Origin: Deltaproteobacteria bacterium
Lineage (GTDB): Bacteria; CG2-30-53-67
Direction of reading: 5' to 3'
DNA length: 10,443 nt
Assembly: GCA_013151235.1 (NCBI GenBank)
Contig: JAADIO010000049.1
Coordinates: 12,518 to 22,960, forward strand
The notes under the pieces are model-generated. The model was not told where the DNA came from and did not search any database. It worked only from the letters and a program-made list of their open reading frames with translations. Of this stretch, positions 4,220-8,038 are shown one piece after another. A program made the position numbers and the translations under genes. Positions within the stretch are counted from its first letter, which is position 1. Every line of letters starts with the position of its first letter.

Positions 4220-4242
4220 CCAGGATGATGGAATGTCCCGTG

Positions 4243-4270
4243 GAGGAGGTGAAAGCCTCCTCTTTTTTTT
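4243..4270 (+). terminator. Intrinsic terminator after pnp
   Basis: GAGGAGGT (4243-4250) and GCCTCCTC (4255-4262) form an 8-bp stem with one terminal U-G pair around the tetraloop GAAA, a stabilising GNRA loop. Eight uninterrupted T residues follow (4263-4270). This is a textbook rho-independent terminator, 23 nt after the pnp stop codon. It would end the nrnA-truB-rpsO-pnp transcript and sits before the peptidase gene, whose chosen start is at 4302. No antisense gene is served by it. Confidence 0.93.
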
Positions 4271-4301
4271 CCTGCGAAAATATAGAGAACAAAAGAGAAC
4301 C

Positions 4302-5567
4302 ATGAAAAATAAAACACAGCAGGGGTTGTTTCGGAAGACCGTTCTGCCGAACGGTCTGACCGTGCTGACCGAAAAGATGCCCCATGTCCGCTCGGTCTGC
4401 ATCGGTATCTGGGTCCCGACGGGAAGTCGTTTCGAGACAAAGGAGAAAAACGGGATCTCCCACTTCCTGGAGCATATGTTCTTCAAGGGAACGGAGAAAC
4501 GGAGTGCCCTGGATATAGCGATGGAAGTCGATTCCCTGGGAGGGGAGATGAATGCCTTTACCTCCAGGGAACAGACCACCTACTACATCAAGGTTCTCGA
4601 TACGCACCTCCGGCTGGCCCTGGATATCTTGACCGATATTTTCCTGCATTCCACACTGGATGCGAAGGAACTCGAGAGGGAACGACAGGTTATCCTCGAA
4701 GAGATCCGGATGCAGGAGGACCAGCCGGAAGATCTGGTCCATGACGTGATGAATGAGATGATCTGGCCGGATCAGGCCCTCGGTTTTCCTGTGGCCGGCC
4801 GGGAAGAGAATGTGATTGCACTGAACCGGGAGGATCTGGTCGCATACGTCCGGGAGATGTACAACCGTGAGAAACTGGTGATCTCCTGTGCGGGCAACAT
4901 CGAGCATGAAAAATTCGTCGCGGATATCGCCGAATATTTCAAGGACTTTTCTTCTATGGAAAAGGCTCGGGTCCCGGTTCCTCCCCGTTTTGTGCCGGGC
5001 ATGAAAGTTCTGACCCGTGAACTTGAACAGGTTCACCTCTGCCTCTCCCTGCCCGGTGTTGCTCAAGCCGATCCGGATCGCTTCGCATTTTATATTCTGA
5101 ATACACTCTTGGGCGCCAACATGAGTTCCCGTCTTTTTCAGGAGGTTCGGGAGAAGAGGGGGTTGGCCTATTCCGTCTATTCTTACCTGTCGAGTTACCG
5201 GGATGGGGGGAATCTGACCATCTATACCGGGGCCAACCGCGACCGTATCCGGGAGGTTCTTGAAGTGATCCGCGTGGAACTGGACCGGATTGCTCGGCAC
5301 CCCGTTACGGCGAAGGAGTTGCACCGTGCCAAGGAATATATGAAAGGCGGGCTCATGCTCAGCCTTGAAAGCTCCTCCAGTGTGATGAGCCGGATCGCCA
5401 AGCAGGAAATCTCACTGGAGGGTTATCAGAGTGTGGATGAGATTGTCCGGCAGGTTGAAGCCGTGACAGCGGACCGCATCCGGGAGATTGCGGCAAAATG
5501 CTTTCAGAAAGACAGGATCGCTCTGGCAGCGATCGGCCCCGTTGAGGAGAAGGACCTGCTTCAATGA
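4302..5567 (+). CDS. M16 family zinc peptidase (processing-peptidase/PqqF-like, single chain)
   Basis: The 421-residue product has the inverted zinc motif HFLEH (residues 54-58: two His ligands with the catalytic Glu at 57) and the downstream ligand region [11 protein letters not shown], where Glu134 is the likely third ligand about 75 residues later. The second, non-catalytic half carries the family's substrate-binding motif [12 protein letters not shown] (Arg283, Tyr290). This matches the bacterial about 420-residue M16B peptidases resembling mitochondrial processing peptidase beta; the physiological substrate in bacteria is mostly unknown. No signal peptide is visible, so a cytoplasmic place is likely. 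The frame opens at 4233, but that start would put the terminator inside the gene and add 23 unlike residues (GGGESLLFFFLRKY). The ATG at 4302 begins the conserved [13 protein letters not shown] region, though its ribosome-binding site is poor. Its stop overlaps the next start (ATGA). M16 genes next to pnp and dut are common in deltaproteobacteria. Confidence 0.93.
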
Positions 5568-6568
5568 AAAAGATACGTGTTCCCGTCTGCAAAAGTGAAG
5601 CGTGCAACGATCTTCCCTATCCGGCCTACATGACCGCCCAGGCCGCGGGAATGGACTTGTACGCATCGGTGGAGCAGGAGGAGATTCTCCCGCCCGGGGG
5701 GCGTGTAAGGATTCCCACGGGGATCTTCATTGCACTGCCTTCCGGTGTGGAGGCCCAGATCCGCGCACGAAGCGGGTTGGCCTTTAAACACGGGATCGGT
5801 CTCGTCAATGGTCCCGGAACGATCGATGCCGACTATCGGGGGGAGATCGGGGTCCTGTTGGTTAATCACGGTTCCGACCCCTTTCCGATTCACCGGGGCG
5901 ACCGGATTGCACAGATGGTCATTGCTCCCGTACTCCAGGCTGAATGGGAGGCCGTGAAAACACTGCCCGAATCGGAGCGCTCCGACGGCGGGTTCGGACA
6001 TACGGGGCATGCTGCCGAATCCCCCATGCGGATCCCCATCAAAAAGGAAGAGATTGAAGAGAAGGCAAAAAAAATCGGATGGATCTTTCTCGATGTAGAC
6101 GGCGTGCTCACCGATGGCCGGATTACCTATGACAGCCGGGGAGATGAACTCAAGACCTTTTACGCCCGGGACGGTCACGGGATCAAACTGGCGCAACGCG
6201 TCGGGATCCGTTTTGCCCTGATCACCGGCCGGGAATCCCGGATCGTCAATCGTCGTGCGGCCGAGCTGGGGATCCGGGAGGTCCACCAGGGATCACTCCG
6301 GAAGCTTGACGCTTATCATGAGATCACCGGGCGTCTCAAACTCTCCGATGAAGAAATTTCCTATGTCGGTGACGACCTGATCGACCTTCCGGTCATGCGG
6401 CGGGTTGGTCTTTCCGCCGCTGTCGCCGATGCAGACCCGGAAACCCGTGACCAGGCGGACCTCATTCTTACCCAACCCGGCGGCCGGGGCGCCGTCAGGG
6501 AATTCATCGAACTCATCCTCAAGGCCCGGAACAAGTGGGTCGAAGCGACGAAACGCTATTATCCCTGA
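5564..6568 (+). CDS. Fusion: dUTP diphosphatase (Dut) + KdsC-like Kdo-8-phosphate phosphatase (HAD)
   Basis: A single open frame of 334 codons encodes two complete enzymes. Residues 1-148 form a trimeric-type dUTPase, which makes dUMP from dUTP, with all five motifs: AGMDLYA (28-34), RARSGLA (67-73), [14 protein letters not shown] (82-95, Asp90 likely activating water, Tyr91 stacking on the base), GDRIAQMVI (112-120) and the C-terminal lid GGFGHTG (142-148). After a short linker and a charged helix (about 160-171), residues 173-334 form a small HAD phosphatase of the KdsC/YrbI type: motif I DVDGVLTD (nucleophile Asp177, acid Asp179), ITGRES (220-225), a lysine near 247, GDDLID (269-274) and the KdsC tail GGRGAVREF. 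KdsC removes phosphate from Kdo-8-P in LPS synthesis; a related sugar-acid phosphatase is possible. Neither domain looks damaged. An internal ATG at 6026 (Met155) could start the phosphatase alone but has no good ribosome-binding site. It overlaps the peptidase gene by 4 nt. A sequencing error that removed a stop seems unlikely, since both halves are in frame, but cannot be excluded. Confidence 0.9.
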
Positions 6569-6612: not shown

Positions 6613-7029
6613 TCATCCTTTCGCGACGGTTTCGGCGATGAAGAGGGTCATAATCATATTGAACCCGAAGATGAAGATGGAGAGGACCTCAAGGAGCCCG
6701 GAGAGGATGAAAAGAGTATAAAGGGAATCTCCCGGACCGTTCTGTCCGGTGATTGCAATTCCGGCCAGACCGATGAGTCCCGCATTGGCAAGCCAGAATT
6801 GCAGCTCTCCTAAGCGATTGCTGAAAAGAGGTTTTCCCGAGAAGCGGGGGAGGATATGATAACCGACGCCATAGATAAGCATCGACATCCAGCCTAAAAG
6901 ATTCAGATGTACATGCGCGAACCGGAGATTTCCCGATCCCGGATGTACGATCATGAAGACTCCCAGTGCACTTGCAATCATCAGATAAATGATTCCCATC
7001 AGGATGAACCGTTTGACGAATCCTTCCAT
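6613..7029 (-). CDS. Small four-helix NorB/CcoN-like membrane protein
   Basis: The 138-residue product is very hydrophobic with four likely membrane helices (about 7-28, 40-62, 74-95 and 104-132). The stretch HVHLNLLGWMSMLIYGVGYH (39-58), followed by ILPRFSG, closely resembles the part of haem-copper oxidase subunit I (CcoN and NorB) that holds a low-spin haem b ligand; His39 or His41 is the candidate ligand. None of the high-spin haem or metal-B ligands are present, so it is not an oxidase or reductase by itself. It looks like a detached fold of the superfamily, able perhaps to hold one haem. The start is well supported: AAGGAGGAG (7035-7043 on the minus strand) with 5-nt spacing. It is divergent from norC and shares its operator region, so a role in NO response, NO reductase assembly or electron supply is inferred. 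The gap to the convergent fusion gene is 44 nt, with no clear terminator. Confidence 0.8.
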   Translation of the reverse strand: MEGFVKRFILMGIIYLMIASALGVFMIVHPGSGNLRFAHVHLNLLGWMSMLIYGVGYHILPRFSGKPLFSNRLGELQFWLANAGLIGLAGIAITGQNGPGDSLYTLFILSGLLEVLSIFIFGFNMIMTLFIAETVAKG

Positions 7030-7297: not shown

Positions 7298-8038
7298 ATG
7301 ACAAAAAATAGTGCAAGGAACCTGTTCTTTATCGGGACCTTTGTCTGCATGGTGGCTTTTTTTGCCCTCTCGATTCATACCATGTCGACCATACCGAAAT
7401 TTACCCATTCGGATAAATTGACGGATGACGTTGTTGCGGGGAAGAAGGTTTGGGAAAAACATGACTGTATCGGCTGCCATACGCTGATCGGAGAGGGATC
7501 CTATTATGCGCCGGAGCTGAAGGATGTTTACAGCCGCAAGGGGCCTGCCTTTATCCGTGCCTTCCTGAAGGATCCGGTGAAAACCTGGTATGGAAGCGCC
7601 GAGGCGGCGGTGGGGCAGCGCAAGATGCCGAATCTTCATCTGTCGGATCAGGAGATTAATCATCTGATCGCATTTTTTGCGTGGGTGGACAAGATCGATA
7701 CGCACAACTGGCCGCCGAGGGCGAAGAAGGGATCGATACAGGCGGCAGGACCGGCAGCTATGGTCGCCGGGGCGACAGCACAGTCGGCGATGGACCCGCA
7801 GGTGCAAAAGGGGGAGGCCCTGGTGCAGGCGAAGGCCTGTACGGCCTGTCACAAGATCAAGGGGGCGGGCACTACGGTCGGTCCCGACCTGACCGGGGTG
7901 ACGAAACGGCTTGATATCGAAATCATCCGGAAGCGGCTCCACGATCCCCGTTCGGTGAAGCCTGATTCGATCATGCCCAACTTCGGTTTCTCCGATACCG
8001 AGGTCGAGGCGATCATTGCCTATCTCAAAACCCTATAG
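7298..8038 (+). CDS. norC: Nitric oxide reductase cytochrome c subunit, dihaem (NorC with an extra C-terminal cytochrome c domain)
   Basis: NorC is the membrane-anchored cytochrome that feeds electrons to NorB. Residues 8-28 form the single N-terminal membrane anchor; the rest should face the periplasm. The first domain is typical NorC: WEKHDCIGCHTLIGEGSYYAPEL, with CIGCH at 57-61 and the distal ligand Met110 in KMPN. A low-complexity Ala/Gly linker (about 146-165) leads to a second cytochrome c domain with CTACH at 181-185 and distal Met226 in SIMPN. Usual NorC is about 150 residues with one haem, so this 246-residue form carries an added haem domain, perhaps a tethered electron donor. The start has AAGGAG (7285-7290) 7 nt upstream; an ATG at 7291 is out of frame. 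The norB ribosome-binding site overlaps this gene's stop, so translation is coupled. Confidence 0.93.
   Translation: MTKNSARNLFFIGTFVCMVAFFALSIHTMSTIPKFTHSDKLTDDVVAGKKVWEKHDCIGCHTLIGEGSYYAPELKDVYSRKGPAFIRAFLKDPVKTWYGSAEAAVGQRKMPNLHLSDQEINHLIAFFAWVDKIDTHNWPPRAKKGSIQAAGPAAMVAGATAQSAMDPQVQKGEALVQAKACTACHKIKGAGTTVGPDLTGVTKRLDIEIIRKRLHDPRSVKPDSIMPNFGFSDTEVEAIIAYLKTL

Follow-up and report, generated by a model that had tools for sequence, protein, structure and literature searches.

A dUTPase–KdsC Phosphatase Fusion Conserved within a Single Bacterial Genus

In one genus of uncultured bacteria, the dUTPase Dut, which clears a harmful DNA precursor, and a KdsC-type HAD phosphatase, of a kind that serves the synthesis of the outer-membrane sugar Kdo, are encoded by a single open reading frame. 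This dut-kdsC fusion, located in a stretch of 10,443 nucleotides of a deltaproteobacterial genome (contig JAADIO010000049.1; the whole stretch is hereafter called the window), is real and conserved, and it was found in one genus only. Its best explanation is, very probably, the fusion at the genus level of two neighbouring housekeeping genes, whose unfused and overlapping copies persist in other genera of the same family.

Two Complete Enzyme Domains in One Chain

The gene (table 1) runs from ATG to TGA over 334 codons and is free of stops through the junction. With this frame intact and both families scoring above their NCBIfam cut-offs, the proposal of an earlier, sequence-only reading that a dUTPase and a KdsC-type HAD phosphatase share one frame is borne out; its placement of the join directly after dUTPase motif V also holds, the dUTPase ending at residue 149 and the KdsC-type half following. 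The start codon overlaps the stop of the M16 peptidase gene upstream, which indicates a tightly packed string of genes.

Table 1. Coordinates of the fusion gene, its parts and the gene upstream (positions in the window)
Feature	Position	Strand	Details
dut-kdsC fusion gene	5564..6568	+	334 aa; intact ORF, same fusion in G001
dUTPase domain, motifs I–V	5564..6010	+	residues 1–149; NF001862 and invariant columns
Linker	6011..6046	+	residues 150–161; length constant, sequence variable between the two fused species
ATG in frame at codon 155, not considered a start	6026..6028	+	anti-Shine-Dalgarno pairing
KdsC-type HAD phosphatase domain	6047..6565	+	residues 162–334; TIGR01670 and invariant columns
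M16 peptidase gene	4233..5567	+	upstream; stop overlaps fusion start, ATGA at 5564–5567

The two halves were aligned separately, each with its own relatives. Residues 2–149 matched the NCBIfam dut family NF001862 with 188.7 bits (cut-off 103), and TIGR00576 was matched with 163.4 bits (cut-off 102.55). The aligned dUTPases share 32 invariant columns, all of which the fusion retains, and the Gly-rich motif V residues R139, G142, G143, G145, and T147 are present. Residues 1–149 thus resemble Dut of the trimeric type (TIGR00576, PF00692) in scoring well over cut-off and in having motifs I–V complete; the difference is that nearly all Dut relatives examined stop at or just past motif V, whereas the fusion chain continues into a second enzyme. 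An AlphaFold2 model built on a dUTPase-deep alignment gave pLDDT values of 80–98 (blocks of ten, residues 1–140). By analogy with its relatives, this half is expected to assemble as a trimer and to convert dUTP into dUMP by hydrolysis. Motif II (5762–5776) reads RARSG in both fused species and RPRSG in nearly all relatives shown, a substitution that is probably tolerated, since one alphaproteobacterial sequence in the alignment has RSRSG.

The second half matched the KdsC phosphatase family TIGR01670 (NCBIfam) over residues 174–323 with 178.8 bits against a cut-off of 106.95. The narrower KdsC equivalog NF007019 (PRK09484) fell short of its cut-off of 208 with 187.3 bits, though this score exceeded those of phenylphosphate carboxylase delta (144.6; cut-off 281.95) and KDN-9-phosphatase (127.7; cut-off 180). 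Across the aligned KdsC relatives 23 columns are invariant, and the fusion retains every one; of the HAD motifs (DxDG, T/S, K, and GDDxxD), the residues D177, D179, K247, G269, D270, D271, and D274 are invariant and T221 nearly so. The HAD part shares 71% identity with KdsC of G004, a species from another genus of the family in which this enzyme is unfused. Residues from about 162 to 328 align full length with KdsC/YrbI (TIGR01670; PDB 7t35, 2r8e, 4um5, and 1k1e), whose catalytic motifs and C-terminal GGRGAVRE stretch are retained; unlike those proteins, this one is carried C-terminal to a dUTPase and is encoded outside the kds cluster. With a KdsC-deep alignment, AlphaFold2 gave pLDDT values of 86–98 over residues 161–330, and by analogy the KdsC half is expected to be tetrameric, as its relatives are, and to remove the phosphate from Kdo 8-phosphate. 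The linker had pLDDT values under 50, the low stretch covering residues 142–159 in the dUTPase-deep model and 138–155 in the KdsC-deep model; in each model the opposite half was poor because the alignment held only two sequences there.

Downstream of the fusion gene lies a 138-aa ORF on the opposite strand (6613–7029) with a match to the COX1 superfamily, and beyond it the nor genes. The first of these (7298–8038, + strand), upstream of norB- and norQ-like genes, encodes a NorC-like protein that carries an additional monohaem cytochrome c domain at its C-terminus (two CxxCH motifs and two Cytochrom_C stretches), which is possibly another fusion of this lineage.

Gene Neighbourhood and Origin of the Join

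The fusion carriers are two species only, both with fragmented genomes (73 and about 250 contigs). In the second, G001, which is the only other species of the genus in our collection, the same protein is encoded in one frame without a stop, 83% identical over 333 residues and with a junction of equal length. Synonymous divergence between the window and G001 is about 0.96 per site. The nonsynonymous rate is about 0.08 in dut and about 0.09 in kdsC (dN/dS of about 0.085 and 0.105, respectively) and reaches 0.30 in the 24-codon junction, where residue identity is 54% (codons 149–172). The low dN/dS of both halves indicates purifying selection on each, in contrast to a drifting linker; the frame has stayed open through a long divergence.

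In our collection, the phylum comprises eight genomes from one class and two families. In the sister family (G006 and G007), kdsC stands directly behind kdsD in a kdsB-pyrG-kdsA-kdsD-kdsC cluster, and dut lies on a different contig from this cluster, behind pnp in G007. In the window's family, the cluster of G000, G004, and G005 reads kdsB-pyrG-kdsA-kdsD without kdsC, and a GGDEF-PilZ gene follows kdsD. In the window's own genome, this GGDEF-PilZ protein (L134, 5746–6927 on contig C60) is encoded directly behind kdsD, that is, at the kdsC position of the sister family; in G004 and G005 a protein of like size and similar start occupies the same place. By searching 386 genomes for the KdsC motif at a distance of about 50–110 nt after dUTPase motif V, we found dut followed by kdsC in five of the six genomes of the window's family and in none of the 380 others, with a pattern strict enough (TTC for Phe, exact motifs) to miss divergent pairs. 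In the sixth genome of the family (G005, 89% complete) neither dut nor kdsC was found.

In the three remaining species, which belong to two other genera (G002, G003, and G004), dut and kdsC are separate genes in different frames, with the stop codon of dut and the ATG of kdsC sharing bases (TGATG in G002 and G004, ATGA in G003). The sequence-only reading had named separate genes throughout the clade as a finding that would speak against it; the outcome is split, the genes being separate, with overlapping stop and start codons, in the other genera and fused in the two species of this one. The distance between motif V and the first aligned codon of KdsC is 39 nt in both fused species versus 38 nt in G002, G003, and G004 (the figure for G003 allowing for a later alignment start); the extra base cannot be pinpointed because the linker has diverged.

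These arrangements suggest a scenario in which, in the ancestor of the family, kdsC would have left the kdsB-pyrG-kdsA-kdsD cluster and landed directly behind dut, in an rpsO-pnp-M16 peptidase-dut string, where the stop/start overlap would have allowed its translation. A net gain of one base at the junction, in the ancestor of the genus, would then have brought kdsC into the frame of dut, with loss of the dut stop in that frame. The predicted product comprises two domains, each folding on its own and each catalytically complete, joined by a flexible tether of about 12–18 residues. The single chain would replace coupled translation with a fixed 1:1 ratio of the two predicted activities, an expectation of the sequence-only reading that we accept.

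Both gene trees are in agreement with descent within the family, as its five members form one group in the dUTPase tree (92/86) as well as in the KdsC tree (88/97). Because the dUTPase tree places the fused genus as sister to the other two genera, it leaves the ancestral state of the family undecided, and the trees do not discriminate between a single fusion and an old fusion that was split again in the other genera. However, the latter order of events would take a fusion followed by a fission where the former takes one event, the two genes are normally separate elsewhere, and the stop/start overlap looks like that of a normal coupled pair; we consider it unlikely, and infer that the direction of change was fusion rather than fission.

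Translation, Activity, and Assembly of the Fused Protein

Could translation also begin inside the fusion gene, at the former kdsC start, and yield a free KdsC? The G001 junction retains AAAGAGGAG-TCCC-ATG, and the anti-Shine-Dalgarno pairing for this ATG, from AAAGAGGAG at good spacing, is −8.6 kcal/mol (20 nt upstream; random window positions have a median of −3.5 kcal/mol). In the window, where the dut start pairs at −8.8 kcal/mol, ATC occupies the corresponding place; the ATG at 6026, from which a free phosphatase had been proposed to start, has no Shine-Dalgarno sequence (−1.5 kcal/mol), so that proposal is not supported. Between this ATG and the HAD core there is no further in-frame ATG, GTG, or TTG; an ATT at 6053 pairs moderately (−5.6), but ATT is a rare start. 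That the gene makes both products therefore seems improbable: judging from the start regions, an internal start could operate in G001 and is unlikely in the window's genome.

No second dut or kdsC was found in the window's own genome, in which kdsA, kdsB, and waaA score over cut-off and the kdsD-like gene is of the SIS-CBS type. With a sole dut, a sole kdsC, and the Kdo pathway genes present, the simplest reading is that the protein would have a dual housekeeping role, in dUTP hydrolysis and in Kdo 8-phosphate dephosphorylation.

Tying a trimer-forming enzyme to a tetramer-forming one within a single chain could impose a higher-order assembly that would itself be functional. If trimers and tetramers so tied formed large cages or networks, the tethered motif V could let the ligand state of one enzyme affect the other and thereby link nucleotide-pool cleaning to the supply of LPS sugar, which we regard as quite unlikely. 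The link between nucleotide-pool cleaning and LPS sugar synthesis that had been read into the fusion is explained by gene neighbourhood, as kdsC is found behind dut across the family and in 0 of 380 genomes elsewhere.

The HAD half had also been suggested to act on a new nucleotide substrate, and by taking dUMP, for example, it would relay dUTP to deoxyuridine. HAD phosphatases are often promiscuous, and this one is physically fused to a dUMP-producing enzyme. On the other hand, it is the only KdsC-like protein of a genome that holds the rest of the Kdo pathway (kdsA, kdsB, kdsD, and waaA), it has kept every invariant KdsC residue and shares 71% identity with the KdsC of G004, and the destruction of dUMP would counter thymidylate synthesis. 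We thus find this suggestion unsupported and very unlikely. Neither a new activity nor a regulatory link has support, and we infer that no new function was acquired with the fusion.

Least credible of all, and rejected here, is a sequencing or assembly artefact in which a spurious base joins two genes that in the organism overlap without being fused: the junction is just one base shorter in the other genera of the family, which is what a one-base error would mimic, but the reading is largely refuted by G001, which carries the same fusion with the same open frame and junction length despite its synonymous divergence, the dut-frame stop at the junction being absent from both genomes.

Significance and Comparison with Known Systems

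Genus-level fusion of neighbouring genes provides a stepwise route to a fused enzyme, by relocation, stop/start overlap, and a one-base join, each stage of which is still found in living relatives. The fusion protein also offers two natural tests: can a dUTPase accommodate a large domain attached after its mobile C-terminal arm, and how do trimeric and tetrameric enzymes coexist in one chain? Moreover, it cautions against reading each domain fusion as a functional link, because the partner here appears to be an accident of neighbourhood.

No dUTPase–KdsC fusion was found elsewhere among the best 80 of 584 confirmed relatives in a scan of 84,980 species genomes, nor was a fused chain of this kind found in phages, plasmids, or PDB chains, or such a fusion in the literature searched. 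The domain pairing is new to these searches, while its parts and the mechanism are known. As a precedent, the baculovirus TMK-dUTPase fusion (pelu112) came closest in these searches; in it, both enzymes appear to retain their active sites (PMC4895240). There, the partner is a thymidylate kinase, an enzyme of the same pathway, placed N-terminal to Dut so that the C-terminal arm is free, whereas in dut-kdsC the partner comes from an unrelated pathway and sits behind that arm. As to the mechanism, the GeneTack survey of coupled overlapping prokaryotic gene pairs described co-located stop and start codons and adjacent genes whose homologues can be fused in another genome (PMC3711429). The unfused relatives of dut-kdsC share the co-located stop and start codons with these pairs; unlike them, the overlapping and the fused states both occur here within one family.
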